Positions 8,176 to 26,194 of a stretch of DNA of 64,000 bases are shown here, one piece after another; position 1 is the stretch's first letter; each line of letters opens with the position of its first letter. The notes beneath the pieces were generated by a model that saw nothing but the letters and a program-made list of their open reading frames with translations, had not been told where the DNA came from and did not search any database. The position numbers and the translations under genes are program-made. The DNA is taken from contig NZ_JABVBB010000022.1 in the NCBI RefSeq assembly GCF_013346665.1, positions 1 through 64,000 on the forward strand, written 5' to 3'. The stretch is from Sulfitobacter maritimus. GTDB taxonomy: Bacteria; Pseudomonadota; Alphaproteobacteria; Rhodobacterales; Rhodobacteraceae.

Positions 8176-8204
8176 TGCGCGGATGAGTGAGAGGAGTGAA
8201 GCCA

Positions 8205-9189: not shown

Positions 9190-9214
9190 GGAACAATGCC
9201 CTATGGCATGCGTT
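9190..9214 (+). promoter_or_regulatory. EcfG-type general-stress promoter candidate
   Basis: GGAAC at 9190-9194 and CGTT at 9211-9214 with a 16-bp spacer. It lies 47 bp upstream of the start codon of the exported flavin oxidase, heading the five-gene plus-strand operon to 14161. The spacer also holds a small palindrome (ATGCC-CTAT-GGCAT). Confidence 0.65.
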
Positions 9215-9261
9215 GCTTCCCTAATTGGTCAAAAAATATACCTGAAATAGGAGCGGTCTAT

Positions 9262-10866
9262 ATGTCCCACCCCTCCAACGTCCGGCCCCCCTCACGGCGC
9301 GATCTATTGAAAATGATCGGTCTGGCCGCTGGTTCCTCCACCATGTTGCATGCCATGTCCTCACTCGGACATGCCCGACAAAGCCCTTACAAAGGCCCGA
9401 TTGAGCTTTCCGGCGCGCCGCAGGGCCGCAAAGTGGTCGTGCTGGGGGCGGGTCTTGCCGGCATGTGTGCCGCGCTGGAGTTGCGCAACGCGGGCTATGA
9501 AGTCAGCATCCTAGAGTATCAAAAACGCTCCGGGGGCCGTTGTTGGACCCTCAAGGGCGGCGATGAGTTTGAAGAGTTGGGCGGCTATAAGCAGAAAGTC
9601 GAATTCTCCAAAGGGCAATACATCAACATCGGCCCCTGGCGCATTCCGCATCACCATCTGGCGCTTTTGGACTATTGCCACCGGTTGAACGTGCCGCTCG
9701 AAGTTTTCGTTCAGGAAAATCAGAACGCCTATCTCCATTCGCAAACGGCATTCGACGGGAAGCCAATTCGCTATGGCCATGCTTGGGCGGATTACGTCGG
9801 CCACATCACAGAACTGTTGGCTAAATCGGTAGATAAAGGGCGGCTCGATAGTGCGCTGACCAAGGAAGATACCGAAATCCTTTTGGAATCCCTGAAATCC
9901 TTCGGCATCCTGAACAATGATTACAGCTATGAGGCCAGCCTCGATACCGCTGAATACCGCGGCTATCCTGAGAATGGCGCACCGGGTGGCGGGCTTTATA
10001 ACGCCGCGCCGGAACCGTCCGAGCCGATTGCGCTGGAGGACCTACTGAAATCCCGCTTCTGGGAGAAGATGCGCAACCACACGACCTACCGCCACCACGC
10101 GCCGATGTTCCAGCCCGTCGGCGGTATGGAGGAGATCGCCCATGCCTTCGCCCGCGAGGTCGAAGATACGATCACCTACAACGCCAAGGTTGACCGCATC
10201 AAACAGACTGAAAGTGGCGTGGAGGTGGAGTATTCCAGCGCCGATGGCGAGGGCGAGGGCGGTGTGGAAACGGCGGATTACTGCATCTGCACCATCCCCT
10301 TCACGGTGCTCAGCCAGCTTGATGTCGACGTCTCTGCCGATATGCGCCGCGTCATGCGGGCACTGCATTATCATGAGGCAGTGAAGGCCGGGCTGGAGAT
10401 GAAGCGCCGCTTTTGGGAGCGAGACGAGCAGATCTACGGGGGCATAACCCTGACCGACCTGCCGATTGCCGAAATCAGTTACCCTTCGGCTGAGATGCAT
10501 TCCAACGGGCCGGGGGTACTGCTGGGCGCCTATGTCTATGGGCCTCATGCATACGCCTTCAATTCCATGTCCCCGAAGGAACGGTTGGAGACCGTGCTGG
10601 AGCAGGGCGCCCAAATTCACCCACAATACCGGGACGAATTCAGCAATGGCGTGGTCCTGAGCTGGCACCGGGTGCCGTGGATGCTGGGCTGCTACTCCGA
10701 CTGGGACGACCGGGGCCGCGACTATGAGATCGCGGCGACGATGGATAACCGTTTTGTCTGCGCGGGGGAGCATATCAGCTATCTGCCGGGCTGGCAGGAA
10801 GGGTCGCTGCTGTCGGCGCTGGATGCGGTGCGACAGGTCCATGACCGCGCGGTGAAGGAGGGTTGA
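9262..10866 (+). CDS. Tat-exported flavin amine oxidase-like protein
   Basis: A 534-residue flavoprotein of the monoamine oxidase / L-amino-acid oxidase superfamily. The start at 9262 follows AGGAG and places a twin-arginine signal (SRRDLLKMIGLAAGS, residues 11-25) at the N-terminus, so the folded, FAD-loaded enzyme should be exported. The FAD-binding GAGLAGM motif follows at about residue 62, then the SGGRCWTLKGGDEFEELGG segment. The C-terminal AGEHISYLPGWQEGSLLSAL is the conserved flavin-contact region. Cytochrome c genes start 3 bp and then 3 bp downstream, which suggests it is a dehydrogenase passing electrons to cytochrome c rather than to oxygen. Substrate unknown. Confidence 0.85.
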   Translation: MSHPSNVRPPSRRDLLKMIGLAAGSSTMLHAMSSLGHARQSPYKGPIELSGAPQGRKVVVLGAGLAGMCAALELRNAGYEVSILEYQKRSGGRCWTLKGGDEFEELGGYKQKVEFSKGQYINIGPWRIPHHHLALLDYCHRLNVPLEVFVQENQNAYLHSQTAFDGKPIRYGHAWADYVGHITELLAKSVDKGRLDSALTKEDTEILLESLKSFGILNNDYSYEASLDTAEYRGYPENGAPGGGLYNAAPEPSEPIALEDLLKSRFWEKMRNHTTYRHHAPMFQPVGGMEEIAHAFAREVEDTITYNAKVDRIKQTESGVEVEYSSADGEGEGGVETADYCICTIPFTVLSQLDVDVSADMRRVMRALHYHEAVKAGLEMKRRFWERDEQIYGGITLTDLPIAEISYPSAEMHSNGPGVLLGAYVYGPHAYAFNSMSPKERLETVLEQGAQIHPQYRDEFSNGVVLSWHRVPWMLGCYSDWDDRGRDYEIAATMDNRFVCAGEHISYLPGWQEGSLLSALDAVRQVHDRAVKEG

Positions 10867-10869
10867 ACC

Positions 10870-11304
10870 ATGCGTTATCTGATCTTTCCCCTGCTTATAA
10901 CGCTCGCCACACCGAGCTTTGCGCAGGAGGAGAATTCACAGGTCGATGCCGGACGGCGTGACCTAGGCTCCACCACCGAGAAGTTTACCGATAGCGACGG
11001 GTCCGAGCTTTACCGCCGCGCTTGTTCGGGCTGTCATGGGCCGGAGGGCGAAGGGGCCTATGGGGCCGGGAAATACCCCGCTTTGGCCGACAACCCACGG
11101 CTTGGACACAAGCGCTATCCGGTGAACCTGATCCTTGAAGGGAATGGGGCAATGCCTTCCTTCGCTGATTGGTTCGATGATGAACAGGTCGCCGCCGTGG
11201 TCTCCTATATCCAGACCAACATGGGCAATGACTACGAGGGCGATGTCACCGCCGAAGAGGTCAAGCGCATGCGGGCCGAGTTCGCCGATCTGGAGGAGGG
11301 GTAG
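10870..11304 (+). CDS. Periplasmic monoheme cytochrome c
   Basis: A 144-residue protein with a Sec signal peptide (MRYLIFPLLITLATPSFAQ) and one heme-c site, Cys52-Ser-Gly-Cys55-His56. A probable axial Met lies in NGAMPSFADWFDDEQVAAVVSYI, as in class I cytochromes c. It starts 3 bp after the flavin oxidase stop and ends 3 bp before a diheme cytochrome. It most likely receives electrons from the flavoprotein, and the convergent oxidase operon is the obvious next acceptor. Confidence 0.9.
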   Translation: MRYLIFPLLITLATPSFAQEENSQVDAGRRDLGSTTEKFTDSDGSELYRRACSGCHGPEGEGAYGAGKYPALADNPRLGHKRYPVNLILEGNGAMPSFADWFDDEQVAAVVSYIQTNMGNDYEGDVTAEEVKRMRAEFADLEEG

Positions 11305-11307
11305 ACC

Positions 11308-12003
11308 ATGCGACTTTCCATTCTTGTTCCCTTTGCCACTTTCCTCGCCTGTGCCGCTGCGGCGCAGTCCCCGCCACCGCTATTTGACGACGCCGATGAT
11401 GAGGGCGTTGACCGCGCGCCGGATACCGCGTTGGGCCGCACCGTTGCCTCTGGTGGCGCGCGGCAGGGTGGTGTCGGCATGAAGTGCATGGCCTGCCACG
11501 GGCTGGATGATGCGGGCGCGGGCTTGGGCGAAATGCCGGGTCTTGCTGGGTTGCCTGCCGACTATATCGAAGAGCAGCTACAGGCCTTCATGGCAGGCGA
11601 ACGAATTTCGGCAATCATGGTACCCATCGCCACACAGCTTACCGAAAAGGAGCGTTTGGCGGTCGCGAATTACTACGCCTCCGTCGCGCCGAAACTGTCC
11701 AAGTTCGACCATGATGCGCCGACCGAAATAGTGCAGCAAGGCGGCGCGCTTGCGGCCTCCGGCAACGATAGCGTTCCGGCGTGCAACCAGTGCCACGGTG
11801 GCAGCGACACCAGCGGCGCGGCGATCCCGCGTTTGGCGGGGCAATCGGCGCAGTATATCGCGGATCAACTTGTGGCTTGGCGGAACGGCGACCGGGCTAA
11901 CGGGCCGCTCAACGTCATGGAAGACATCGCCAAATCGCTGAGCGAAGAGGAAATCCGTGCCGTCGCGCTCTACTACCAACAGACACCGCCTGATGCGCAG
12001 TAG
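11308..12003 (+). CDS. Diheme cytochrome c (c4-like)
   Basis: A 231-residue exported protein with two similar cytochrome domains, as in cytochrome c4. The heme sites are Cys60-x2-Cys63-His64 and Cys159-x2-Cys162-His163. Each is followed by a GLPADYI/GQSAQYI and a Met-bearing I-x-TQLTEKE / IAKSLSEEE segment. The signal peptide is MRLSILVPFATFLACAAAAQ. c4-type proteins shuttle electrons to terminal oxidases. A related diheme protein (19208-20026) sits in the facing operon. Confidence 0.9.
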   Translation: MRLSILVPFATFLACAAAAQSPPPLFDDADDEGVDRAPDTALGRTVASGGARQGGVGMKCMACHGLDDAGAGLGEMPGLAGLPADYIEEQLQAFMAGERISAIMVPIATQLTEKERLAVANYYASVAPKLSKFDHDAPTEIVQQGGALAASGNDSVPACNQCHGGSDTSGAAIPRLAGQSAQYIADQLVAWRNGDRANGPLNVMEDIAKSLSEEEIRAVALYYQQTPPDAQ

Positions 12004-12039
12004 ACCTGCACCACCACGGATACTGACGGCTCCAAGCTG

Positions 12040-13509
12040 ATGGCTATTCGCCCGGCCTCCTTCTTCCGGTCGGGGGCTTCGACCGTGATGACAGTCGCGC
12101 GGCTGCGTGTGATCGCGCTGACCCTTGGCAAGCACGCCCCGATCTTCGGCGCGCTTTGCCTGCCGCCCGGCGCTTGGGCCTTGGCGGAGGGGGATTTTCT
12201 GCTGGCGCTGGTCCTGCTCACCCCGGTGGCCCTGTCGGGGGCGGTGTATTTCGCGGTACGGTCTCACCCCTTGCCCGATGATTTGCGCGGGCTTGAGGCA
12301 ATGATGACCGTAGCCTTAGTTTTCCTCATTGCAGCGCTCCTAACGATGCCCGCCTTCGTCGCCCTTGGAATGCCGCCGATCGATGCGTTCTTCGAGGCGG
12401 TGAGCGGCATCACCACCACCGGGCTTACTGTCGCGCGGGAGGCGGAAAGCTGGCCCTTCGCGGGCCATGTCCTGCGCGGTTGGATGCAGTGGTGCGGCGG
12501 TTTGGTGATCGCCACGGCGGTGCTCGCTCTGCTGCTGCCGCGTGGTCGCCCCGCACGGCGTTTGGGACGGGTCGATATCCAACAGGGGGATCGTATTTCC
12601 TCAACCCGAGACCAGGCGCGTCAGCTTCTAACTGTCTATAGCGCGCTGACTATAGTGATGGTCCTACTGACCATGCTCGTGATCCCCGATTGGCGGGAGG
12701 CACTGGTGCTGACCCTCGCCGCGATCTCGACCGCCGGGTTTTCGCCCCGCGCTGACAGTCTCGCGAGCTACTCGCCCCTGGGGCAGGGCATGGTCATCCT
12801 GTCCTGCGTCTTAGGGGCGATATCGCTGTTGGTCTTTGTCTATGTCGGCCAAGGACGCCACCGCGAAGCGTGGAGGCTCGGGTCGGCGCAGCGTGTGCTG
12901 GTGGCGATTGCCGTGGCCTTGGTCGTCTATCTCGCCGCCGTGCTCACGACATCGCAAGACCGGGACCTAACCCTCTACGCCCATGCACTGAACTTGATCT
13001 CAGGGCTCACAACGGCAGGATTTTCCACGGGGCCGGTCTATGACGCCGGTCCCGCATTGCTGATCCTGCTGCTAGCGATGCTCTGGGGCGGTGATGCCGG
13101 ATCGACGGCGGGCGGGCTGAAGCTCAGCCGCTTGCATGTCTGCATCGGCGCGGTGGTCCATGCGGTGCAGCATGTGCGGCTGACCGAACATGCCATCGCG
13201 CCCCTGCGCCACAATGGCCAGCCCGTTTCGACTGAAGCGGTCGTGTCTCTCTTGGCGCTCGTGCTGATTTATTTCAGCTTTGCGGGTCTGTTGTGGTTTC
13301 ATTTCGTGGCTCACGGCTATCCCCCTTTGCCCGCCTTGTTCGACACGATTTCTGCTCTCTCGACCGTGGGCCTGTCGACGGGCGCGGTCGGGGCGGACAT
13401 GCCGGCGGATCTGAAGCTGTCCGTCGCCTTTGCCATGTGGCTGGGACGGCTGGAATTCATCGCGGTGCTGGCGCTTTTGCTGCCGCGCAGTTGGACCCGA
13501 CCAAGTTAG
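12040..13509 (+). CDS. trkH: TrkH-type potassium transporter membrane subunit
   Basis: A 489-residue polytopic membrane protein with the four pore-loop repeats of the Trk/Ktr/HKT superfamily, each holding the selectivity-filter glycine: ITTTGLT, ISTAGFS, LTTAGFS and LSTVGLS. It forms the K+ pathway and needs a TrkA-type RCK protein, which is encoded 10 bp downstream. The ATG at 12040 is used; a second in-frame ATG at 12088 is also possible because neither has a strong ribosome site. It is unusual to find this pair directly after two cytochrome c genes in one operon. Confidence 0.9.
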   Translation: MAIRPASFFRSGASTVMTVARLRVIALTLGKHAPIFGALCLPPGAWALAEGDFLLALVLLTPVALSGAVYFAVRSHPLPDDLRGLEAMMTVALVFLIAALLTMPAFVALGMPPIDAFFEAVSGITTTGLTVAREAESWPFAGHVLRGWMQWCGGLVIATAVLALLLPRGRPARRLGRVDIQQGDRISSTRDQARQLLTVYSALTIVMVLLTMLVIPDWREALVLTLAAISTAGFSPRADSLASYSPLGQGMVILSCVLGAISLLVFVYVGQGRHREAWRLGSAQRVLVAIAVALVVYLAAVLTTSQDRDLTLYAHALNLISGLTTAGFSTGPVYDAGPALLILLLAMLWGGDAGSTAGGLKLSRLHVCIGAVVHAVQHVRLTEHAIAPLRHNGQPVSTEAVVSLLALVLIYFSFAGLLWFHFVAHGYPPLPALFDTISALSTVGLSTGAVGADMPADLKLSVAFAMWLGRLEFIAVLALLLPRSWTRPS

Positions 13510-13519
13510 GAGATTACCC

Positions 13520-14161
13520 ATGCGTATCGTCATCATCGGCGCGTCGAGCTTTGGCATCGCCATTGCGGAAGAACTGATCGAGACCGACCGCGAGGTCGTG
13601 TTGATCGACAAGTCGCGCGAGTTGCTGGAACAGGCGGCGGAACGTATCGACTGCGGCATGATAGAAGGTGACGGCAGCAACCCAGATGTCCTGCGCGAGG
13701 CGTTCCGCGACGAAGATGACGTTTGCATCGCCGTGACCAATGCCTCCGAGATCAATATTCTGGCGGCGCTCATTGGCCGGTCCATCGGCTATGGCCGCGT
13801 GATCCCGCAGATTACGTCGAACGGGCTGCTGCGGGTTTGTTGCGAACTTGGACTGGATGACGTGATCAACCCACATGCGAAGGTCGCCGAAGATATCGTC
13901 GACATGCTGACAGGCGATGACGATGCGATGCAAGAGCCGCTGCTACAGGGCGAGCTGCTGCTGACCCGCGTCACCGTGCCTGACCGCTTGGCTGGGGAGC
14001 GGATGGACCTGCCGGGCCAAGGCCGTCTTGTGGCGCTGATCCGCGACGGGGAAGAGCAGTTGCCCGGGCCGGATGTCACCCTGCAAGAGGGCGACGTGCT
14101 GATCGTGGTGCTGCCGCGAGAGATGCAGGAAGACCTAGCCGAAGCCTTCGCAGCAGACTGA
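13520..14161 (+). CDS. trkA: TrkA-type RCK regulatory subunit
   Basis: A 213-residue cytoplasmic protein with a TrkA-N Rossmann domain (IVIIGASSFGIAIAEEL, nucleotide-binding loop at residues 7-12) and a TrkA-C domain (residues ~140-210, ending GDVLIVVLPREM). It is a single RCK unit, half the length of E. coli TrkA, like KtrA-type gating rings. TAGGAG at 13507-13512 supports the ATG at 13520. It is the last gene of the plus operon and stops 5 bp from the end of the convergent operon. Confidence 0.9.
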   Translation: MRIVIIGASSFGIAIAEELIETDREVVLIDKSRELLEQAAERIDCGMIEGDGSNPDVLREAFRDEDDVCIAVTNASEINILAALIGRSIGYGRVIPQITSNGLLRVCCELGLDDVINPHAKVAEDIVDMLTGDDDAMQEPLLQGELLLTRVTVPDRLAGERMDLPGQGRLVALIRDGEEQLPGPDVTLQEGDVLIVVLPREMQEDLAEAFAAD

Positions 14162-14166
14162 CCCGC

Positions 14167-14883
14167 TCAGCCTGCGCTCTGCGCCAGCGTATCCTGCCGC
14201 AACAGTTGCCGCACCTGAAGCGCAACTAACACCATAAAAAGCCCGCCACCCGCGACCCACATGAGTGCGCCGGCAAGTTGCTGATCGGCCAAGGCGGAAA
14301 GCCCGTAGGGCAGGGCGGTCAGCTCGTGCCAGCCATGCCACGCGGTGGGCGCAAGGGTCAGGGTCACTGCAAAGGCGGTCAACTGTGCCGCGCTGAAGAC
14401 CGCAGGCACTGCCGCCTGCGCCCCGGCACCCCGGAACCCCATGAACAGCGCAATCGCGCAGCCTGTCAGCGACAGATGCATCGCCCAATAGACAAGGTCA
14501 GACTGCAAGGTCGCCGCATAGGGCGCCGGGCTGTGCCATCCCCAAAACAGCAGGGCAAAGAGCAGCGCAAGGGGCCAGAGCGGCAGTCGCAGCTTCGGCA
14601 GTGCCGCCGCGATCAGCGGCGCGGCGATGAGCGTAAGCAGGATATGCTGCCCCACCCGCGCCGAGAACAGCGCCATCGAGGCCGCGCAGAGCGGAGAGAT
14701 GAACAGGACCGCCACCAGCGCCGCGCCCGTGAGCGCTTGGCCCCGCCGCTCGGCTTGCCACCAGAGCAGGGCCGCGAATACCACCAGCCCGACTAGCAAA
14801 AAGGGGTCCAAGGTCCAGCGGGTCAAAAGCTCACCGGGGAGGGGCGGTGTGCCGCAGAATGGCGTATAGGCGTCCTGTTGCAT
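14167..14883 (-). CDS. CtaG-type cytochrome c oxidase assembly membrane protein
   Basis: A 238-residue protein with about seven predicted membrane helices. It matches the caa3_CtaG family: an N-terminal WTLDP segment, histidines in VGQHILL and WAMHLSL, and a conserved WHGW / LADQQLAGALMWVAGG region near the end. These proteins help assemble caa3/ba3-type oxidases, probably through copper handling. It is the last gene of the eight-gene oxidase operon, 16 bp after the small membrane protein. It is unrelated to Cox11, which is also called CtaG. Confidence 0.82.
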   Translation of the reverse strand: MQQDAYTPFCGTPPLPGELLTRWTLDPFLLVGLVVFAALLWWQAERRGQALTGAALVAVLFISPLCAASMALFSARVGQHILLTLIAAPLIAAALPKLRLPLWPLALLFALLFWGWHSPAPYAATLQSDLVYWAMHLSLTGCAIALFMGFRGAGAQAAVPAVFSAAQLTAFAVTLTLAPTAWHGWHELTALPYGLSALADQQLAGALMWVAGGGLFMVLVALQVRQLLRQDTLAQSAG

Positions 14884-14899
14884 GATGGGTCCTCTCTCT

Positions 14900-15229
14900 C
14901 TATCCGTGGCAGCCGGGCAGGATCAGCACGGGGGTAAGATTGGCGAGCGTAGCAATGAGCGAGATCAGCCCGGTCCACCATCCCGCGCGCAGGAGGGCGG
15001 CTTCATCTCGGTTCAGGTCCGACCGTCGTCCGGTATGCGCGGCACCCCACATCCAGAAAATTTGCGCTATGGCCATGACAAGGGTCAGCACCACGGCGGT
15101 GATCAGCAGATGGTTCTGCCCCAAAAGCGCACGCGGCGCACAGGCGGCGGAGATCAGCGCGTAGATCAGCGTGAAATGCAGCGCCCAAAGCAGGACAGGT
15201 TTCGCGATACCTTTGGTCAAACCTCTCAT
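14900..15229 (-). CDS. Small membrane protein of the oxidase operon
   Basis: A 109-residue protein with three predicted membrane helices (LLWALHFTLIYALISAAC, HLLITAVVLTLVMAIAQIFW, WWTGLISLIATLANLTPVLIL). Its start overlaps the subunit I-III stop by 4 bp, so it is translationally coupled to it. Position and size suggest a minor subunit or assembly partner of the oxidase. I recognise no specific family. Confidence 0.7.
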   Translation of the reverse strand: MRGLTKGIAKPVLLWALHFTLIYALISAACAPRALLGQNHLLITAVVLTLVMAIAQIFWMWGAAHTGRRSDLNRDEAALLRAGWWTGLISLIATLANLTPVLILPGCHG

Positions 15230-17763
15230 ATCGCGCCTCCTGCCAGCAGATAGGCCGCCGCTGTCATGCCGCCCATAATGGCCACGACCTTGGCGAATGT
15301 AGCGATCAGCAGGTTGGGCAGCATCTGACCCGGCTTGACCGCGCCCACGGCCTTGCGCAGCGCGTTGATCAGCGACCAGTAAAGCACCACGGCAAGATAT
15401 CCCGCTACAAATGCAAACAGCGCCCAGCCCACGGCGGCATAAGCCGAAGCATAGGGATCGACCGGCTGGATCGACAGGAACAGCAACGCGCCCAAGCCAA
15501 TGGCGCCCACCGCAAGCCCGAGATCAACCGCGATCACCGGCGTGACCTTGGCCCCAAAGGCTGCCCGCCGACTGGCCCAGCTGAACAGCAGCAGACTCAA
15601 AGCGGCGAGCGCTGCCAGACCTGCCATCAGCGGATCAGCGGCAGGGGTCGTTTCGGCCCAATGGGGCTGCGTATTCCACAGGTACAGCCCGGCAAAAAGC
15701 AGCGAGGCAAAGAGCGCGAAAGAGATCAGCATCGTTCCCACCACCGCGATATGCAGATGGCTGCGCGGATCGACGACATTGACCGGCAGGCGCAATCCGC
15801 GCAAACCGCTGTCCCGGCGCACGCCGCTGTCCGACGGTTCCCAAATCCACGCGGTAATGCCAATGAGTGCGATGGCAAAGCCGACTGCCACCAGCCAATA
15901 GGCCGAAGCCAGCGTCGCGGCAAAGCCAAGCGCCAAGCCAAAGGCCGAGATCAGCGGCGTCCATGTGGGATGCGGCAGCCGCACGATCTGCATCGGCGCG
16001 CCGGTGATTGGATCATTGCCCATGGTCTCGCGCCGGTGGTCGGTGCAGGGTCGCAAGGCACCCTCGACCTGCGGTGCCGGACGGTCCAACAGTTCAGGTT
16101 GATCCCACAGCGGCTCGCGCGAGCGGACTTCAGGGATGGCATGAAAGTTAAACCCCGGCGGGATCGGCGTATAGAGCCATTCCAGCGTGCCAGCGCCCCA
16201 AGGATTGCGTCGCGCCCGCAGCCCGTGACGTTGGTGCCAGAAGAAGTCAAAGACGAAAAGCATCACCCCGGCGGCCAAAATGTAAGACCCGATCGAGGAC
16301 AGCATGTTGAGCCGGTCCCAGCCCAGCCCTTCGGGGTAGCTGGCAATGCGCCGGGGCATCCCGCGCAGGCCGGTCAGATGCATCATGAAAAAGGCGATGT
16401 TAAAGCCGATAAACATCAGCCAGAACACCCACCGCCCGATGGTCTCGGACATCATGCGCCCGGTAAATTGCGGCATCCAATAGTAGAGCGCGCCGAACAT
16501 CGGAAAGATAAATCCGCCGATCAGGACATAGTGCAGATGCGCGACGATAAAGTAGCTGTCATGGGCTTGAAGGTTGAAGGGTACAGCAGCGATCATCACG
16601 CCGGTGAAGCCCCCGATGACAAAGATGAACAGAAAGCCCAAGATAAAGAGCATCGGCACATCCATACGCGGCCTGCCCTGTGCCAGCGTGGCAAGGAAGC
16701 AGAAAATCTGCACGCCCGTGGGGATCGCCACCATGGTCGAGGCTGCCGAAAATAGCGTCAGTGACATCACAGGCAGACCCGTGGCAAACATATGGTGGGC
16801 CCAGAGCCCGAAGCTGAGGAATCCCATTGTCACCACTGCCGCCACGGCGAAACCATAGCCAAAGAGCGGCTTGCCCACAAAGGTCGGCAGCATCGTCGCC
16901 ACCATCCCGGCAGCGGGCAGGAAGATGATATAGACCTCCGGGTGGCCAAAGAGCCAGAACAGGTGCTGCCAGAGCAATGGGTCGCCGCCGAGCGCGATGT
17001 CAAAGAAGGGCAGGCCGAGCAGCCGTTCCGCCTCTAAAAGGATCGAGCCGATGATCAGCGGCGGAAAGCCCACGGCGATCATGAAGGCGGTTACCAACAG
17101 ATACCACATGAAGATCGGCATCTTGGTCAGGCTCATCCCCGGCGCGCGGGTGCAAAGGATGGCGGCGATGATCTCGACCGCGGCGGTGACGGAGGCGATC
17201 TCGGCAAAGGTGATCCCGATGAGCCAGAAATCCGCCGAAAGGTCTTGCGTATAGGCGCTGGTCGAGAGCGGGACATACATGAACCAGCCGCCAGCGGGTG
17301 CCGCATCAAAGATAAAGGACGACAGCACGATGATGCCGCCGAAGAGATAGCAGTAGTAGCCAAAAGCCCCCAATCGCGGAAACACCAGATCGCGCGCGCC
17401 GACCATAAGCGGAATAAGATGCACCGCGAACCCTTCCAGCATGGGGATCGCAAAAAGGAACATCATGATCGTGCCATGCATGGTGAAGACCTGATTATAG
17501 GTCTCAGAGTCGAGGAAGGTATTGTCCGGCACGATAAGCTGCGTGCGGACCAGCAGCGCAAGGAAGCCAGCGATCAGGAAAAAGATGAAGCCGGTGACGA
17601 GGAAACGCTTGCCCACAACCCGGTGGCTGACCGAGGACAGATAGCGGATGCCCGGCGGGGCGTCCCAGATCCGCTCGAACCCCTTGTCCGGCTCGCCCTT
17701 GGCACTGCCGGAGTAGCTCTGATCCTCGGGCAGATCCACGACATATGCGGTACGATCAGTCAT
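15226..17763 (-). CDS. Cytochrome c oxidase subunit I-III fusion
   Basis: An 845-residue fused heme-copper oxidase. Residues ~40-560 are subunit I. His96 and His411 ligate low-spin heme, His409 ligates the high-spin heme, and His274, His323 and His324 ligate CuB. GHPEVY holds Glu276 and the cross-linked Tyr278. Asp125 marks the D-channel entry. The K-channel lysine position is Gln352 (IPTGVQIF), and the position matching R. sphaeroides Asn139 is Gly132. Residues ~600-845 form a subunit III-like membrane domain with seven or so helices. The flanking subunit II gene overlaps by 4 bp. The enzyme reduces O2 with cytochrome c electrons; pumping efficiency cannot be inferred. Confidence 0.92.
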   Translation of the reverse strand: MTDRTAYVVDLPEDQSYSGSAKGEPDKGFERIWDAPPGIRYLSSVSHRVVGKRFLVTGFIFFLIAGFLALLVRTQLIVPDNTFLDSETYNQVFTMHGTIMMFLFAIPMLEGFAVHLIPLMVGARDLVFPRLGAFGYYCYLFGGIIVLSSFIFDAAPAGGWFMYVPLSTSAYTQDLSADFWLIGITFAEIASVTAAVEIIAAILCTRAPGMSLTKMPIFMWYLLVTAFMIAVGFPPLIIGSILLEAERLLGLPFFDIALGGDPLLWQHLFWLFGHPEVYIIFLPAAGMVATMLPTFVGKPLFGYGFAVAAVVTMGFLSFGLWAHHMFATGLPVMSLTLFSAASTMVAIPTGVQIFCFLATLAQGRPRMDVPMLFILGFLFIFVIGGFTGVMIAAVPFNLQAHDSYFIVAHLHYVLIGGFIFPMFGALYYWMPQFTGRMMSETIGRWVFWLMFIGFNIAFFMMHLTGLRGMPRRIASYPEGLGWDRLNMLSSIGSYILAAGVMLFVFDFFWHQRHGLRARRNPWGAGTLEWLYTPIPPGFNFHAIPEVRSREPLWDQPELLDRPAPQVEGALRPCTDHRRETMGNDPITGAPMQIVRLPHPTWTPLISAFGLALGFAATLASAYWLVAVGFAIALIGITAWIWEPSDSGVRRDSGLRGLRLPVNVVDPRSHLHIAVVGTMLISFALFASLLFAGLYLWNTQPHWAETTPAADPLMAGLAALAALSLLLFSWASRRAAFGAKVTPVIAVDLGLAVGAIGLGALLFLSIQPVDPYASAYAAVGWALFAFVAGYLAVVLYWSLINALRKAVGAVKPGQMLPNLLIATFAKVVAIMGGMTAAAYLLAGGAI

Positions 17764-18701
17764 TTAAGGCTCGCCAGATAGGCCGAGAGCGCGCGCAGGT
17801 CCGGCCCCGGCAGATGGTTGTAAGAAGGCATTTTGGCGCCCGGTTTCATCGCGGTCGGGTCTGCGATCCAACCTGCTAGCGTGCCTTGGTTCATGCGGTA
17901 CATCCCTGCCGCAAGGCTACCGCGCCCACCGACGCGGGTCAGGTCAGGTCCAAGCGTTCCGGTTTCCGCCACGCCGCGAATGGTGTGACAGGCGGGGCAG
18001 CCGGCTTCGACGAAGACTTCGCGCCCGCGTGTCAGTTCCGTGGTGACCGCGTCACGGGCTTCGCCGCTGCTGCGCTCTATCCAAGCATCAAACTCTTCGG
18101 GCTCCAGCACAACCACCTCAAAGGCCATTTTAGGGTGCGACAGCCCGCAAAACTCAGCACACTGCCCGCGAAAGCGCCCGGTCTCGGTGGCCATGACAGG
18201 CAAGCTGTTCACCCGGCCTGGGATCATGTCCATCTTGCCGGTAAGCTTTGGCACCCAGAAGGAATGGATCACATCGCTGGATTTCAGACGAAATGTGACG
18301 GGGCGGTCTTTGGGAATGACGATCTCATTGGCGCCGCGCATGGCCCAGCCTTCGGGGTCATAGACCACGTCCCACCAGAACTGCTTGCCGGTCACCTCAA
18401 TAACCAGCGCTTCGGGGTCTTCCGAGGTGATGCGTTGCAGGATGACGGTGGAAAAGCCCATGAGGATCAGCACCGAGACCAGCGGCAAAGCGATCCCGCC
18501 GGTCCATATCCACCAATGGCGCGGGGCGAGCTTGCCCGACACCACCGCCCAGATAAAGATCAAGAGCAGGACGAAAAGCACCCCGAAAGCCACGGTCATG
18601 CCGATGGTCAGCCCGTTGATCGCGCTGGCACCGACGCCTTCCGGCGACAGCGCCGATTGCACGCCATATTCGCCAAGAGTGGACTTTGCCGGATCACTCA
18701 T
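17760..18701 (-). CDS. Cytochrome c oxidase subunit II with heme-c tail
   Basis: A 313-residue protein. Two N-terminal membrane helices (~30-55 and ~66-88) lead to a periplasmic CuA domain with His146, Cys181, Glu183, Cys185, His189 and Met192 (motif GQCAEFCGLSHPKM). A C-terminal cytochrome c domain follows (Cys235-x2-Cys238-His239, Met in GAKMPSYNHL). This caa3-like layout lets the oxidase take electrons through its own heme. It overlaps both neighbours by 4 bp. No lipobox is visible. Confidence 0.93.
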   Translation of the reverse strand: MSDPAKSTLGEYGVQSALSPEGVGASAINGLTIGMTVAFGVLFVLLLIFIWAVVSGKLAPRHWWIWTGGIALPLVSVLILMGFSTVILQRITSEDPEALVIEVTGKQFWWDVVYDPEGWAMRGANEIVIPKDRPVTFRLKSSDVIHSFWVPKLTGKMDMIPGRVNSLPVMATETGRFRGQCAEFCGLSHPKMAFEVVVLEPEEFDAWIERSSGEARDAVTTELTRGREVFVEAGCPACHTIRGVAETGTLGPDLTRVGGRGSLAAGMYRMNQGTLAGWIADPTAMKPGAKMPSYNHLPGPDLRALSAYLASLK

Positions 18702-19198
18702 TCCCGCGCCTCCGATCCGAGCAGATAGGCCGCAATGTCCCGCGCTTCCTCGCGTTTAAGGCCGAGGTTCGGCATCGCGGTCGCAGGGCTATGGGCCGGT
18801 GGGTTCATCAGCCAGCGGGTCAGATCACCGGGGCGGTTGGGCAGCACGCCCGCGACATAGGACTGCCGCGCGAAACCATGCAGATCGGGGCCAACGGTGC
18901 CCTGCGCATCGCGCAGACCCGGCACGCGGTGGCAGGCACCGCAACCGTTCGATCTGATCAAATCAACCCCACGCTGCGGGTCGGCATCGAGAAACCGGCG
19001 CGCGGCTGCTTCATAGTCAGGCGTCTTTTCCACCAACCCTTGCCGGATATTGATCCGGTACCAATCCGAGACCTGCTGTGAGGCCTCTCGAACCGGCTCG
19101 GCCACGGCGGCAGCAAGGCTGCTCTGCGGCGGCAGGGCCGACCAGACCATCGCCAGGGCTGAGAGCAGCACAACCGATATGACGGTGAAAAGGCGCAT
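18698..19198 (-). CDS. Membrane-anchored monoheme cytochrome c
   Basis: A 166-residue protein with an N-terminal hydrophobic segment (FTVISVVLLSALAMVWSAL) that is either a signal peptide or an anchor. It has one heme site GCGACH and a methionine in TAMPNLGLKREEARDIAAYL near the C-terminus. The cytochrome domain resembles those attached to oxidase subunit II. It is coupled to the subunit II gene by a 4-bp overlap, so it is probably a dedicated electron donor or an extra oxidase subunit. Confidence 0.85.
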   Translation of the reverse strand: MRLFTVISVVLLSALAMVWSALPPQSSLAAAVAEPVREASQQVSDWYRINIRQGLVEKTPDYEAAARRFLDADPQRGVDLIRSNGCGACHRVPGLRDAQGTVGPDLHGFARQSYVAGVLPNRPGDLTRWLMNPPAHSPATAMPNLGLKREEARDIAAYLLGSEARE

Positions 19199-19207
19199 CC
19201 CGTCAGC

Positions 19208-20026
19208 TCACTGCGTCGGCGCCGTTGAAGGCTCCAACAGCGGGGAGGTTTCAGGGGGCAGCGGTTGAGTTGGGCGGACGCGGTTGTAATAGGCGCTGAC
19301 GGCTTCGATGTCATGCTGGGTCATCTTCTTGGCGATGGCGGACATGACATTGTCCACATCATTGTCGCGTTTGCCTTCCTTCCACATCTGCAATTGGTGT
19401 TCCATGTAGCTGGCATATTGCCCGGCGAGATAGGGGACAGAGGGCGGATTGCCGAGGCCACTTGGGCCGTGACAGTTCACGCAGGCCGGCACGCCGCGTT
19501 CGGCAGAACCCACCGCGCCCAATTGCCCGCCCCATTGCAGGGTCATCCCATCCACATCGCCCAAGGGCGGCGTATAGGGGGCTGAAATCGTGGCGTAATA
19601 GGCAGCGACCGCTTCCATCTCTTCCTCGGTCAGTTTCTTGGCGATGCCTGACATCACGCGGTTCTGCCGATCACCAGAGGCGTAGTCTTTCAACTGTTTG
19701 TAGGTGTACCAGCCGGCTTGCCCTGCAAGCCTTGGGAAGGCGCCCGACCCGTCGCCGGTGCCATCGCCGCCGTGGCACGTGATACAGGCCATGCCGCTGT
19801 CGCCCGCCTCAGATCCGCCCATTGCGACGAGCCGCCCAAGCTCTAGCACATCGTCGTCGACTTCGGTGTTCACCGTCGCATTGAAACGCAGAACATCGTC
19901 TTGCAGGCGCTGCTCCATCGCGGGAATCCCCGGCGCGGCTTCGTAGTTCTGCGCCCGGATGAAGCCGGCAGAAATGCCAAGTACGGCGAGTGCGCTACAG
20001 GTCGTCAGAACGGTGCGGAATGTCAT
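19208..20026 (-). CDS. Diheme cytochrome c (c4-like) of the GMC-oxidase operon
   Basis: A 272-residue exported protein with two cytochrome domains: CITCHGGDG and CVNCHGPSG, each followed by a conserved FPRLAGQ / VPYLAGQYASY stretch and a Met-Ser-x-IAKK segment (VMSGIAKKLTEEE, VMSAIAKKMTQHD). The signal peptide runs to about residue 25. It lies 22 bp after the GMC flavoprotein and 9 bp before the monoheme cytochrome. It therefore likely takes the place of the triheme subunit found in classic FAD-dependent glucose or gluconate dehydrogenases. Confidence 0.9.
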   Translation of the reverse strand: MTFRTVLTTCSALAVLGISAGFIRAQNYEAAPGIPAMEQRLQDDVLRFNATVNTEVDDDVLELGRLVAMGGSEAGDSGMACITCHGGDGTGDGSGAFPRLAGQAGWYTYKQLKDYASGDRQNRVMSGIAKKLTEEEMEAVAAYYATISAPYTPPLGDVDGMTLQWGGQLGAVGSAERGVPACVNCHGPSGLGNPPSVPYLAGQYASYMEHQLQMWKEGKRDNDVDNVMSAIAKKMTQHDIEAVSAYYNRVRPTQPLPPETSPLLEPSTAPTQ

Positions 20027-20048
20027 GGGTCGGTCCTTTCGATCTGTC

Positions 20049-21836
20049 TTAGGCGTCCATCAAGGGGGCGGGGTTGGGCAGGTAGTCGCGTTTCATATGT
20101 TCCAGCGTCCAATAGGCGAGGCCCATCAGCGGCCCGGTCGGGTTGTAGCCAAGGTTTTGCGGGAAGAGACATGCGCCAAAGACGAAGACGTTGTGATGGT
20201 CCCACATCTGGCCATAGCGGTTGACCACGCTGGTCTCAGGGTCCGTGCCAATGACCGCACCGCCGACGTTATGGGTGGTTTGATAGGGGACGATGTCATA
20301 GTGCTTATCGACTGCGGCATTATTGGTGCCGCTGACGGAGGTCACATTGTCCATCTCCCGCGCGACATCCATCGCGCGTTGCATGACGTAGTCCGACATC
20401 TTGCGGTCGTTTTCGGGGAAGTCAAAGGTCATCCGCAGCAGCGGGCGGCCAAAGCTGTCGGTCCATGTGGGGTCGAGGTCGAGGTAGTTCTCAGGCGTCG
20501 AGACCGAGGAGCCATGCACCACCAGATCAGCATGGTGGTTGTAGTTCTCGCGCACCGCTTGCTTCCATTCCGCGCCCCATTTCGGCGTGCCTTCGGGGAC
20601 CGGTTGATAGCCGATGGGGCGGCCATGGTACTGCTTGCAGGCGATATAGCCGCCGCCGACGAAGCCCAGATCGCTATGATCGAAATTGTCGCCATTGTAA
20701 TCGTCGATTACCACGCCAAGCGCACCCGCGCCCATATAGGGGTCTGTCTCCACGCTCTTGTCGAAAAAGGCATCAACCCCGGCGACGGTCTGATAGCTGT
20801 AGTTGCGGCCCACTACGCCGGTGCGGGTTTCGGGATCATAAGGTTTGCCCAAGCCGGAAACGAGCATCAGATGCACGTTCCAGAGAGCATAGGCGTTCAT
20901 GCAGATCGTGTCAGCGGGCTGGAACACTTCCTCGCCGTTCGCATCCAGATAGATCGCGCCTGTGGCGGTCTTGCCGTCTTCGCTCTTCTCGATCCGCAGC
21001 ACTTGGGCATCGAAGCGGATTTCAAAGTTCTCATGGTCTTTGATCTGGTCATAGACACAGATGATCGGGTCGGCCTTGGCGTAATAGCCGCAGCCAAAAC
21101 GCTCGCAAAAACCGCAATAGGTGCAAGGGTGTAGCTGCGCTCCATAGGGGTTTTCATAGGCTTTCGTCACATTGGCGGAGGGCATGGGGAATGGGTTCAG
21201 ACCCATGCGCGCGGCGGCTTCGCCAAAGAGCGTGTTGGATATTGGCTGGCGCATCGGCGGGTTGGGGTAATCCGCGCTACGCGGCCCTTCAAAGACATTA
21301 CCACCGGCGCGGGCTTCACCGCCAAGGTTGCCCGCAAAACCGGCAGCGCCACAAATGCGCTCAAAAAAATCGAGATGCGGTTCAAGCTCTTCATAGGTCA
21401 CGCCCCAGTCCTGCACGCTAAGCTCTGGGCCGATAAAATCTTTGCCATAGCGGTCTTCGTAATGGCTGCGCATTTGCAGGTCTGAGGGCAGAGGCCGCCA
21501 GATTTGCCCGTTCCAATGAATGCCCGCACCTCCAAGGCCAGAGCCGGGGAGAAACGACCCCAATCGCCGCATCGGCAGCGCCTGCTGGTCCCGGTTGTTG
21601 CGGATGGTGAGGGTCTCTTTCTTGACGTCCATCATATGCGAATACCGATGGGCGTATTTTAACTCGTCATGTTCCTCGGGCGCGCCAAAGGAGGTTGCCG
21701 TGTGCCGTTTCTTGCCGCGTTCCAGCACCACGCAGCGTTGTCCGGCATGGGTCAACTCATAGGCAGCGGTCAGGCCCGTCCAGCCGCCGCCAATGATCAA
21801 AACATCGGTCTTGGGGAGCTTTCTTGGCGCCATCAA
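20049..21836 (-). CDS. GMC-family FAD oxidoreductase, catalytic subunit
   Basis: A 595-residue flavoprotein. It has an FAD-binding GGGWTG motif at residues 16-21, a GMC N-domain with GSGLGGAGIHWNGQ (98-111) and a GMC C-domain with the catalytic His near residue 521 (TTHNVGG) and NPTGPLMG. A cysteine cluster at Cys238, Cys241, Cys244 and Cys249 resembles the iron-sulfur site of FAD-dependent glucose/gluconate/fructose dehydrogenases. It has no signal peptide. The upstream overlapping gene encodes a Tat-bearing Gluc3 subunit that should carry it across the membrane. It oxidises an alcohol or sugar in the periplasm; the substrate is unknown. Confidence 0.9.
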   Translation of the reverse strand: MMAPRKLPKTDVLIIGGGWTGLTAAYELTHAGQRCVVLERGKKRHTATSFGAPEEHDELKYAHRYSHMMDVKKETLTIRNNRDQQALPMRRLGSFLPGSGLGGAGIHWNGQIWRPLPSDLQMRSHYEDRYGKDFIGPELSVQDWGVTYEELEPHLDFFERICGAAGFAGNLGGEARAGGNVFEGPRSADYPNPPMRQPISNTLFGEAAARMGLNPFPMPSANVTKAYENPYGAQLHPCTYCGFCERFGCGYYAKADPIICVYDQIKDHENFEIRFDAQVLRIEKSEDGKTATGAIYLDANGEEVFQPADTICMNAYALWNVHLMLVSGLGKPYDPETRTGVVGRNYSYQTVAGVDAFFDKSVETDPYMGAGALGVVIDDYNGDNFDHSDLGFVGGGYIACKQYHGRPIGYQPVPEGTPKWGAEWKQAVRENYNHHADLVVHGSSVSTPENYLDLDPTWTDSFGRPLLRMTFDFPENDRKMSDYVMQRAMDVAREMDNVTSVSGTNNAAVDKHYDIVPYQTTHNVGGAVIGTDPETSVVNRYGQMWDHHNVFVFGACLFPQNLGYNPTGPLMGLAYWTLEHMKRDYLPNPAPLMDA

Positions 21837-22522
21837 TCAGACCCTCCGCCAATCGCACGGGGCGGGTAGGGCGTACCGCCTCTGTCATGGGCGATGCCGC
21901 GCGGGGGCGGCGTGACAGAGCGTTTGTCTGCGTCAACACGCTCGGTATAGTAGGCGTGCGCACCCGGAAAGCCGACCATGCGCCAACCCGCGTAGTCGTG
22001 ATTGCCCAAGTAGATTGGATCGGCGAAATACCCCTGTTTCGTCAGCTTCCACAGTTCCGCGATCAACGTGCCGACGATATCGTCGCGTTCTGACATCTGC
22101 TCAACGTGATCCGCCCGCGCCGTGGCGTCCATAGTGGCGATGTCACCCAACTGACCTGCCTGCTCGATCCCCTGCCGCAAAAGCTGTGCGGGGGTGAACT
22201 TAAGCTGATAGCCCTGTTCTGGGACGGCACCGGAGGGGAAGGGCGGGTCAAGGTACAGACCTTCGCCTGCGCCGTAAGCTGTGGCCATCTGAAAATCGAT
22301 GAAATCCACGACACCTGCTTGCGAGGCGGACGGGAAGTCGTCCTGCGGGATGAACACATCTGCGACGGCGGCGATCCACTGGGCTTCGGCATCGGTAAAG
22401 AAGGACCACGGCCTATCGTCTTGGGCAGCAAAGGCGTGGGAGACGGGAAGTCCGGCACCTGCAACACCGGCACCAAGTGCGATTTGGGCTAAAATAGCTC
22501 GTCGAGAATAGAGCTTTGCCAT
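21833..22522 (-). CDS. Gluconate 2-dehydrogenase subunit 3-like, Tat-exported
   Basis: A 229-residue small subunit of a GMC dehydrogenase. The twin-arginine signal is at residues 6-11 (SRRAIL) followed by a hydrophobic AQIALGAGVAGAGLPVSHAFA stretch; the Gluc_2DH_3 domain follows (~40-200). In related enzymes this subunit is needed to export and stabilise the FAD subunit. It is the first gene of the minus operon and overlaps the GMC gene by 4 bp. The start lies about 40 bp downstream of an EcfG-type promoter. Confidence 0.88.
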   Translation of the reverse strand: MAKLYSRRAILAQIALGAGVAGAGLPVSHAFAAQDDRPWSFFTDAEAQWIAAVADVFIPQDDFPSASQAGVVDFIDFQMATAYGAGEGLYLDPPFPSGAVPEQGYQLKFTPAQLLRQGIEQAGQLGDIATMDATARADHVEQMSERDDIVGTLIAELWKLTKQGYFADPIYLGNHDYAGWRMVGFPGAHAYYTERVDADKRSVTPPPRGIAHDRGGTPYPPRAIGGGSD

Positions 22523-22562
22523 GAAATAAGGCTCCGCTTGAAAATAGGTCTATCATCACCCC

Positions 22563-22587
22563 AACGGTAAACTTCCTGTGTGGTTCC
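22563..22587 (-). promoter_or_regulatory. EcfG-type promoter candidate for the GMC-oxidase operon
   Basis: On the minus strand GGAAC (22587-22583) and CGTT (22566-22563) are separated by 16 bp. The start codon of the first gene is about 40 bp downstream at 22522. The -35 is half of a perfect palindrome GTTCCGGAAC (22583-22592) that also presents GGAAC toward the divergent exchanger gene. Confidence 0.65.
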
Positions 22588-22652
22588 GGAACTTTTTAAA
22601 TCTTTTGGCCTGCTTGCGTGAACGTATTAAGCCGGCCGCGCGTTGGCTGATC

Positions 22653-23669
22653 ATGTTTGCAAGCCTTTCTACCCCGATCCTTTTCGCGCTTGGCGGTCTT
22701 GCCGGGCTCATCATTCTTGTGACCGGCTACCGTATGACGGGGCTGAGCGACCAGATTGCGGACCGCACCGGCTGGGGCGAGGCACTGGTCGGCGCGGCGC
22801 TGCTGGGGGCGGCGACCTCCATGTCCGGCACGGTCGTTTCACTGACCTCGGCGTTGGATGGGCGGGCGTCATTGGCCTTTTCGAATGGCATCGGTGGCAT
22901 CGCGGCGCAGACAGCGTTTCTGGCCTTGGCCGATATGATCTATCGACGCGCCAATCTGGAACATGCGGCAGCCGATCTGGCGAATGTCTTTCAGGCGGGG
23001 CTTTTGCTGCTGCTGCTGACAGTGCCGCTGATGGCCTTCACCGCGCCGGAAGTTGCCTTTTTGGGCATCCATCCGGCCAGCATCGCGCTGTTTGCGCTTT
23101 ACGCCTACGGGATGCGCGCGACGGCCCGATTGCGCGAAGAGCCGATGTGGCACCCGGTATCCACCCCTGACACCCGCGCGGATGAGCCTGAAGATGACGA
23201 AGAGGCCGCAAAACCCGTCGGCGCTTTGGTCGTGCCGTTTCTGATCTTGCTGGTGTTGATGGGCCTCTCCGGTTTCGCCGTGGCACGGATTGCGGCGGAA
23301 ATCTCGGACCGGTTTAACCTTTCCGATACCGTGGTGGGTGCGACGATGACGGCGGTGCTTACGTCTCTGCCAGAGCTTGTCACCACATTGGTCGCGGTAC
23401 GGCGCGGGGCGCTGCAATTGGCCGTGGGCGGGATCATCGGCGGTAATACGTTCGACACGCTGTTTCTCACCTTGTCGGATATCGGCTATCGCAACGGCTC
23501 GCTCTATCACGCGATCACTGCGGATGACCTGTTCTGGCTTACCGTGGCAATGATGATGACGGCGATTCTGATCCTCGGGCTGATATTCCGGCAGCGCAAA
23601 GGGATCGGTTGGGAGAGTATTGGTCTCTTGGTGATCTACGCAGGCGCGCTTGCGGTGCAGGTTTTGTAA
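22653..23669 (+). CDS. CaCA-family cation exchanger
   Basis: A membrane protein of about 338 residues with two inverted halves of roughly five helices, separated by an acidic cytoplasmic loop (EPEDDEEAAKP). The second alpha repeat is canonical (LTSLPELVTTLVAVRRG, then GGIIGGNTFDTLFL). The first repeat reads ATSMSGTVVSLTSALDG and lacks the usual Pro-Glu, so one of the two ion-binding acids is missing. The cation may therefore not be Ca2+. The ATG at 22653 is preferred because it starts the first helix; an in-frame GTG at 22578 would overlap the divergent promoter region. Confidence 0.78.
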   Translation: MFASLSTPILFALGGLAGLIILVTGYRMTGLSDQIADRTGWGEALVGAALLGAATSMSGTVVSLTSALDGRASLAFSNGIGGIAAQTAFLALADMIYRRANLEHAAADLANVFQAGLLLLLLTVPLMAFTAPEVAFLGIHPASIALFALYAYGMRATARLREEPMWHPVSTPDTRADEPEDDEEAAKPVGALVVPFLILLVLMGLSGFAVARIAAEISDRFNLSDTVVGATMTAVLTSLPELVTTLVAVRRGALQLAVGGIIGGNTFDTLFLTLSDIGYRNGSLYHAITADDLFWLTVAMMMTAILILGLIFRQRKGIGWESIGLLVIYAGALAVQVL

Positions 23670-23683
23670 ATTCAAATAACAAG

Positions 23684-23708
23684 GGAACCATCTCATCAAA
23701 ATCCCGTT
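23684..23708 (+). promoter_or_regulatory. EcfG-type general-stress promoter candidate
   Basis: GGAAC at 23684-23688 and CGTT at 23705-23708 with a 16-bp spacer. The start codon of the PRC-barrel gene is 53 bp downstream. It may also serve the following symporter and channel genes. Confidence 0.65.
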
Positions 23709-23761
23709 ACTCCTGTGATGCTACCGGCTTTGCCCGACCGAATTTTCAGCAGGAGACAGTC

Positions 23762-24529: not shown

Positions 24530-24586
24530 GCCACTGGCCGTGCGGGCCAATCTCGGAATTAGGCGCAAAGAATATTTTAGGAGAGC

Positions 24587-26191: not shown

Positions 26192-26194
26192 ACC

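Follow-up and report, generated by a model that had tools for sequence, protein, structure and literature searches.

Three-component sugar dehydrogenases dependent on flavin adenine dinucleotide (FAD), such as the fructose dehydrogenase (FDH) of Gluconobacter and the FAD-glucose dehydrogenase (FAD-GDH) of Burkholderia, are composed of a large flavoprotein, a small subunit and a triheme cytochrome subunit. Clusters joining a dehydrogenase to a terminal oxidase have a precedent in the cytochrome oxidase (COX) operons of type a-II, which often contain pyrroloquinoline quinone (PQQ) dehydrogenases (Degli Esposti 2014, PMC4013037; papers are cited here for the parts of their text that were available). 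The caa3 oxidase of Pseudomonas aeruginosa is an RpoS-dependent oxidase of starvation or stationary phase (PMC5436846), coxPONM of Rhizobium etli encodes a (p)ppGpp-dependent oxidase (PMC3188799), and a twin-arginine translocation (Tat) signal with an adjacent cytochrome c (CytC) gene marks flavoprotein dehydrogenases that use CytC, a class that reacts poorly with oxygen and fast with CytC (Akram et al. 2025, PMC12224317). The locus described here lies in a 64,000-nucleotide stretch of the 3.79 Mb genome of Sulfitobacter maritimus (contig NZ_JABVBB010000022.1, positions 1 to 64,000; "the window") and consists of an oxidase arm and an amine-oxidase arm facing each other. Of the two, the oxidase arm, with the composition Gluc3-GMC-diheme c-monoheme c-CoxII(c)-CoxI/III-small membrane protein-CtaG, is genuinely conserved as a unit. 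With a probability of about 0.58, the locus is read as a stress-induced periplasmic "short-circuit" respiratory cassette, which would lead electrons from sugar-type donors, and here also from amino acids, to a dedicated caa3-type oxidase.

Conservation of the oxidase arm was assessed by scanning genome contigs with the GMC protein and placing the window genes by tblastn in the 80 loci kept out of 275, to which two plasmids and the stretches found in searches at the level of the order were added. Twenty-two distinct loci, window included, shared at least 70% identity in GMC (six further plasmids, H5-H10, with 77%, stand outside this count), the nearest named relatives by this gene being Sulfitobacter delicatus (95%) and Hoeflea halophila (94%). 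A fused CoxI/III was clustered with GMC in all 22, orthologous (at least 67% identity) in 19 of them. The three others, all Sulfitobacter (L142, L143 and L179; GMC 76-77%), harbored a CoxI/III of 46% identity about 4 kb away, so that the oxidase there differs but is not missing; they represent oxidase exchange in a conserved dehydrogenase context. In L179, a Sulfitobacter pontiacus plasmid, annotated DedA and APC permease genes were located between GMC and the different CoxI/III. Apart from L013, every other locus with CoxI of at least 67% identity (17 of 18) gave a tblastn homologue of the 109-aa membrane-like protein. Across 292 genomes of the order, in which the best few candidates per genome were scored, CoxI of at least 68% identity occurred in six genomes and always lay no more than 3 kb from GMC. 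In the wider GMC class (~45-57% identity, 64 of the 80 loci, many of them short), any CoxI match lay nearby in 9 loci. The arm was kept as a block in other genera, which is more than chance would produce.

The two operons are convergent, with stop codons at 14161 and 14167, 5 bp apart, as had been stated in a preliminary description of this DNA made from the letters and their open reading frames (ORFs). Other parts of that description were borne out as well: the Tat-exported amine-oxidase-like protein (AO) by a Tat-type signal and a Pfam Amino_oxidase match, the heme counts by CXXCH motifs (one each in c1, c3 and CoxII, two each in c2 and c4), the Gluc3-GMC pair, oxidase and assembly factor by Pfam matches to Gluconate_2-dh3, GMC_oxred_C, COX1, COX2 and Caa3_CtaG, and the similar promoter on both arms by GGAAC-N16-CGTT at 9190 (+) and 22587 (-). 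The mirrored order it proposed is only partial: the flavoprotein precedes the cytochromes in both arms, but the oxidase is confined to the minus arm, and the plus arm (AO, c1, c2, TrkH, TrkA), described there without its K+ uptake pair, continues through TrkH-TrkA and ends there. On the minus strand, the 5' to 3' order is Gluc3, GMC, c4 (diheme), c3 (monoheme), CoxII-c, CoxI/III, the 109-aa protein and CtaG.

The preliminary description had also drawn a self-contained path through both arms. Its dedicated oxidase stood, within the conserved oxidase arm, but the two arms are not one obligate unit, and the outcome it had named as a refutation, independent occurrence of the arms in related genomes, was observed. 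An AO arm was linked in 5 of the 22 oxidase-arm loci, convergently in the window, L007, L008 and L020, and in tandem on the same strand with a single cytochrome in plasmid pDSHI02 of Dinoroseobacter shibae. AO homologues (E 1e-60 or better) were found at 13 places in 12 of the 292 genomes; two stood beside the oxidase, and 11 consisted of AO and a c1 homologue with no CoxI within the fetched stretch, one of them (C13) in the host genome itself. Genome G229 possessed both arms, about 350 kb apart on one contig. A twin operon as a single obligate unit is ruled out by this separate occurrence; the AO arm is an accessory to the oxidase arm and elsewhere a free-standing flavoprotein-cytochrome pair. 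Adjacency of the arms might be an accident of one ancestral insertion without any functional link, as the low number of linked loci, the separate arms of G229 and the grouping of the five linked AOs in one clade (100/100 in a tree of 18 AO rows; L008 only half covered) would allow. This explanation is unlikely given the two orientations and the strict EcfG-type motif (defined below) ahead of AO in three of the four convergent cases, and the single clade taken together with the two orientations speaks for a partnership that is real, though optional. No common pattern of another dehydrogenase replacing the AO arm downstream of CtaG emerged from the ORFs listed for 15 loci; L009 displayed a second GMC-like protein (23% identical) there, L016 a diheme cytochrome and L142 a three-heme cytochrome.

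On the donor side of the AO arm, the Tat-type signal, judged by its motif, reads PPSRRDLLKMIG after ATG 9262, which is most likely the gene start rather than 9196, since the latter falls within the promoter motif. Of 17 further AO rows, 16 also had the RR motif, and the one without it is truncated at the N-terminus. The closest solved relative is the L-amino acid oxidase 2jae (1.6e-90), whose NVGATRIP arginine, presumably the binder of the substrate carboxylate, aligns with an arginine of AO. Eight of the 13 free AOs (L129-L134, L136, L205) and none of the 5 linked ones had a neighboring gene for a RidA-family protein whose N-terminus resembles a signal. RidA hydrolyzes imines, and its position beside free AO-cytochrome pairs suggests that imine products are handled in the periplasm. 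A GFO/IDH/MocA oxidoreductase gene directly preceded AO in the window (8187-9167) and in L020 (20606). The gene for c1 begins 3 bases after AO, and a c1 homologue accompanied AO at all 11 unlinked places; with its Tat signal and adjacent cytochrome c, AO would be a CytC-using dehydrogenase by the marks given in the available text of PMC12224317.

The GMC protein of the oxidase arm gave a predicted structure (mean predicted local distance difference test score, pLDDT, 84) nearest in fold to FDH and FAD-GDH (Foldseek E 1e-37, TM score 0.7-0.8 to FDH), at 19-21% identity to the solved chains. Cysteines C238, C241, C244 and C249, which we take to be Fe-S ligands after the FDH and GDH structures, were invariant over 22 aligned rows, as were H522 and N565. 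The Tat-like signal of Gluc3 probably carries GMC across the membrane.

Both arms open with GGAAC-N16-CGTT, which was matched four times in the window (0.5 expected; none of 100 shuffles reached four) and fits the consensus of EcfG, the alphaproteobacterial general-stress sigma factor, given for Sphingomonas as GGAAC-N17-20-GTT (PMC6599016). A strict form (GGAAC-N16-17-CGTT) and a loose form (GGAAC-N17-18-GTT) were distinguished. The loose motif was located 54-77 bases ahead of Gluc3 in 19 of 22 loci, and in L014, L015 and L019 a strict site lay 44-46 bases ahead of TrkH, there the first gene of TrkH-TrkA-Gluc3; a loose form thus preceded Gluc3 or the leading TrkH in all 22, against a background for one such search interval of ~0.007 per locus (estimated as the rate in the same loci, which are related and not independent). 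Pairwise comparison of the spacer in 17 loci gave 29% identity, close to the chance level; the final box, read in 18 loci, was CGTT in 9, TGTT in 7 and GGTT in 2. Ahead of AO, the strict motif was present in the window, L007 and L008 (the last read from L208, Hoeflea). With a wider search interval, loose sites were observed ahead of TrkH (7/10 loci), PRC (3/8), SSF (4/13) and MscS (1/14), and none ahead of the Na/Ca exchanger (0/7), GFO (0/7) or TrkA (0/10).

Scans for sigma-70 promoters (3 vs 3.9 expected) and terminators (12 vs 11.0) displayed no excess over shuffles, which sets the shared promoter apart from the sigma-70 type. The idea that the EcfG motif characterizes CtaG-led CoxI/III clusters in general was not supported: the motif occurred in 3 of the 20 loci with CtaG by tblastn (28 loci less 8 without it), and it was found in 10 of 63 loci of the ~50% GMC class (one of the 64 was dropped, being too near the stretch end or having no Gluc3 match). 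The oxidase of Sinorhizobium meliloti pSymB, considered as a known EcfG/RpoE2 target, had no support in the literature text available and no strict motif in its stretch. In the host, genes for an HWE-type kinase, an extracytoplasmic function (ECF) sigma factor, NepR and PhyR are adjacent to one another. Separate from this EcfG locus, the window contains a second gene (27427-28125) for an ECF-like sigma factor of the sigma-70 family, next to the gene for MscS and oriented opposite to it.

In the proposed mechanism, EcfG would transcribe both arms under stress. The Tat-exported Gluc3-GMC enzyme, bearing FAD and a probable Fe-S cluster, would oxidize a sugar or a sugar-like polyol or acid in the periplasm, and electrons would pass from flavin to the Fe-S cluster and be relayed by the two cytochromes c (diheme and monoheme) to the heme c and CuA of CoxII, the dedicated fused CoxI/III, assembled with CtaG, reducing oxygen. 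Here and in a small number of other strains, the L-amino-acid-oxidase-like flavoprotein would act as a second, cytochrome c-linked donor with its own cytochromes, feeding the same oxidase. The gain would be a membrane potential generated from substrates outside the cytoplasm, with no need for their uptake or for NADH, quinone or the bc1 complex.

Several points weigh against this reading. Its substrates, sugar-type for GMC and amino-acid-type for AO, are guesses from fold and family, and direct transfer from cytochromes to oxidase without bc1 would take place in a genome that also encodes a cytochrome b of the bc1 type and has four other COX1-family genes, which makes a mixed electron path possible. 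On the promoter side, no more than 10 of the 22 loci had the strict motif directly ahead of Gluc3, and the relaxation to GTT, as in the published consensus, was made after the misses of the strict form had been seen. AO of L020 lacked the full motif and that of D. shibae, which sits after CtaG in the same direction, had none of its own, while motif forms occurred upstream of 4 of 13 free AOs (three GGTT, one strict at -157). Genome-wide, the strict motif was not enriched (65 matches vs 118 for the reversed pattern), so that the case for EcfG rests on conserved position in related, non-independent loci. In Rhodobacter sphaeroides, the PhyR cascade is described as important for membrane stress and without a major general-stress role (available text of PMC5830050), and "general stress" may therefore mean envelope stress here.

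The same genes lend themselves to a plainer account, in which ordinary periplasmic catabolic dehydrogenases deliver electrons through cytochromes to the common pool, CoxI/III is one more general oxidase and clustering reflects co-regulation only. Besides the cytochrome b gene and the other COX1 genes of the host, the free AO-cytochrome pairs lacking an oxidase, that of the host included, and the 55 of 64 Gluc3-GMC loci of the ~50% class with no CoxI nearby favor this account. It is nonetheless rather doubtful, as an oxidase was clustered with GMC in every locus of the GMC subfamily (of another type in three) and CoxII carries its own heme c in addition to two clustered cytochromes.

Among the features of an A1-type caa3 oxidase, CuA and heme c on CoxII and E278/Y280 were present, and Lys354 and Asn131 were absent. 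CoxII retained the run GQCAEFCGLSHPKM (C-x3-C-x3-H-x2-M, CuA-type ligands) and a heme c domain (COX2, Cytochrom_C). In CoxI, active-site residues H276, E278 and Y280 were conserved (E278 and Y280 in 48 of 48 rows), with Gln at K354 of the K-channel and Gly at N131 of the D-channel, positions being mapped via the host's own aa3 oxidase, which retains both. Both K354 and N131 were lost in all 47 fused CoxI/III rows, and four more readable rows agreed (L033, L041 and L042 belong to a different COX1 type, and L023 is cut). The change of K354 to Gln as a feature special to the unit was thereby ruled out: it is common to the whole fused clade examined, also outside the cluster, and is a trait of the oxidase clade, which may use rewired proton channels. 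As loss of the K-channel in family A is treated in the available text of PMC8239418, it is not claimed as new here. The missing channel residues, the intact active site and the stress-type promoter could also suit an oxidase that lowers periplasmic oxygen or drains electrons with little proton pumping, avoiding reactive oxygen. Such a protective role is quite improbable, since the losses extend to fused oxidases outside the cluster and pumping is not readable from sequence.

Genes for ion and osmotic functions surround the unit. Among the 21 related loci (window excluded), SSF and MscS genes were each found near it in 13, TrkH/TrkA in 9, PRC in 7 (some at 31-38% identity), and the Na/Ca exchanger and GFO/IDH/MocA in 6 each. 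In 85 control loci with other GMC or other CoxI/III, the counts were 1 for SSF, 1 for MscS, 0 for TrkH/TrkA, 0 for PRC, 2 for the Na/Ca exchanger and 1 for GFO, part of the contrast possibly being relatedness, because the controls came from broader bacteria and some were short. An annotated TrkG-TrkA pair near the oxidase of control L203 (Roseomonas mucosa) was missed by tblastn, which therefore undercounts neighbors, and controls L201 and L202 displayed an annotated Na/Ca exchanger within the oxidase cluster. The window was colinear with Hoeflea, of another order, over 10057-27251 (78% DNA identity), and with S. delicatus, which lacks TrkH-TrkA, over 9223-12002 and 14162-27262 (80-83%). A tentative extension of the proposed mechanism is an emergency power source that keeps ions in balance. 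When the cell meets osmotic or envelope stress, an EcfG-driven, quinone-independent chain might burn extracellular sugars and amino acids at the dedicated oxidase and so maintain the membrane potential on which K+ uptake by the co-encoded Trk depends, beside MscS and a Na+/solute symporter. Coordinates of both arms and their neighbors are given in Table 1. Transposase-like ORFs at the left end of the window (39-896 and 3613-4392, recognized by eye from the translation) are as expected for a mobile or plasmid-like region.

Table 1. Features of the two arms and adjacent genes in the window
Feature	Position	Strand	Support
EcfG-type promoter motif GGAAC-N16-CGTT, ahead of amine-oxidase arm	9190..9214	+	
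AO, Tat-signal flavin amine oxidase / L-amino-acid-oxidase-like dehydrogenase	9262..10866	+	Pfam Amino_oxidase 8.7e-60; top PDB match 2jae 1.6e-90
c1, exported monoheme cytochrome c	10870..11304	+	one CXXCH; Cytochrome_CBB3 2.5e-14
c2, exported diheme cytochrome c	11308..12003	+	two CXXCH
TrkH-type K+ transporter	12040..13509	+	Pfam TrkH 2.2e-34
TrkA-type regulatory subunit, last gene of plus arm	13520..14161	+	Pfam TrkA_N 4.7e-19
CtaG, caa3 oxidase assembly factor	14167..14883	-	Pfam Caa3_CtaG 4.4e-18
109-aa membrane-like protein	14900..15229	-	no Pfam match; conserved in cluster by tblastn
CoxI+III fusion, A-family oxidase subunit, 845 aa, single gene	15226..17763	-	TIGR02891 CtaD 3.9e-208
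CoxII with CuA-type ligand sequence and fused heme c	17760..18701	-	COX2 7.8e-19; Cytochrom_C 5.4e-10
c3, monoheme cytochrome c	18698..19198	-	one CXXCH
c4, diheme cytochrome c	19208..20026	-	two CXXCH
GMC, FAD dehydrogenase large subunit, four invariant Cys	20049..21836	-	Pfam GMC_oxred_C; nearest solved folds fructose/FAD-glucose dehydrogenase
Gluc3, small subunit, Tat-like signal (SRRAIL)	21833..22522	-	Pfam Gluconate_2-dh3 8.6e-19; signal read from translation
EcfG-type promoter motif GGAAC-N16-CGTT, ahead of oxidase arm	22563..22587	-	
Na/Ca exchanger family protein, neighbor	22578..23669	+	Pfam Na_Ca_ex 2.4e-26
EcfG-type promoter motif ahead of PRC-barrel gene	23684..23708	+	
PRC-barrel protein, neighbor	23780..24529	+	Pfam PRC 1.5e-11
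Sodium:solute symporter (SSF), neighbor	24587..26191	+	Pfam SSF 4.3e-67
MscS-type mechanosensitive channel, neighbor	26195..27280	+	Pfam MS_channel_2nd 1.6e-11

The oxidase arm thus seems to be a compact conserved gene set of marine bacteria, joining an exported sugar-type dehydrogenase to its own oxidase behind a stress-response promoter. If true, this would tie respiration to the alphaproteobacterial general stress response in a way open to testing, with a terminal oxidase served by its own donor and not by the quinone pool, and would give a candidate function to a plasmid- and chromosome-borne island of marine Roseobacter-group bacteria. The large fused CoxI/III clade, which lacks the canonical lysine of the K-channel and asparagine of the D-channel, likewise makes proton handling testable. 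The D. shibae transcriptome paper names a cbb3 and an aa3 oxidase, and pDSHI02 is absent from its available text (PMC5398030).

Compared with known systems, the GMC enzyme shares with the three-component sugar dehydrogenases of Gluconobacter and Burkholderia the GMC fold, the Cys-rich Fe-S-type motif, a small Tat-type subunit and a cytochrome c partner, but it is served by separate diheme c4 and monoheme c3 proteins instead of a triheme subunit and has an oxidase in its cluster. With the COX type a operons and fused COX1-3 oxidases, in the available text of PMC4013037 and PMC6431628, the locus shares the fused COX1-3 and Caa3_CtaG, and differs from the type a operons of PMC4013037 by its FAD-GMC dehydrogenase with Gluc3 and its EcfG-type promoter. 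The caa3 oxidase of P. aeruginosa and coxPONM of R. etli are, like the oxidase here, secondary A-type oxidases under stress-type control (suggested by a motif in the present case); unlike the window cluster, theirs have no dehydrogenase member described in the available text of PMC5436846 and PMC3188799. AO shares with the CytC-using amine dehydrogenases NicA2 and Pnao the Tat signal, the flavin amine oxidase fold family and the adjacent cytochrome c, and differs from them, as far as the available text of PMC12224317 describes them, in being closest to L-amino acid oxidase 2jae and in its linked diheme cytochrome and terminal oxidase. The combination of GMC-Gluc3, a dedicated fused oxidase, an EcfG-type promoter, an optional amino-acid arm and ion-transport genes was not found in a limited search of open-licence literature. 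The enzyme classes have precedents in COX-linked dehydrogenases, stress-regulated A-type oxidases and CytC-using amine dehydrogenases, and what may be new is the combination in which they are assembled.

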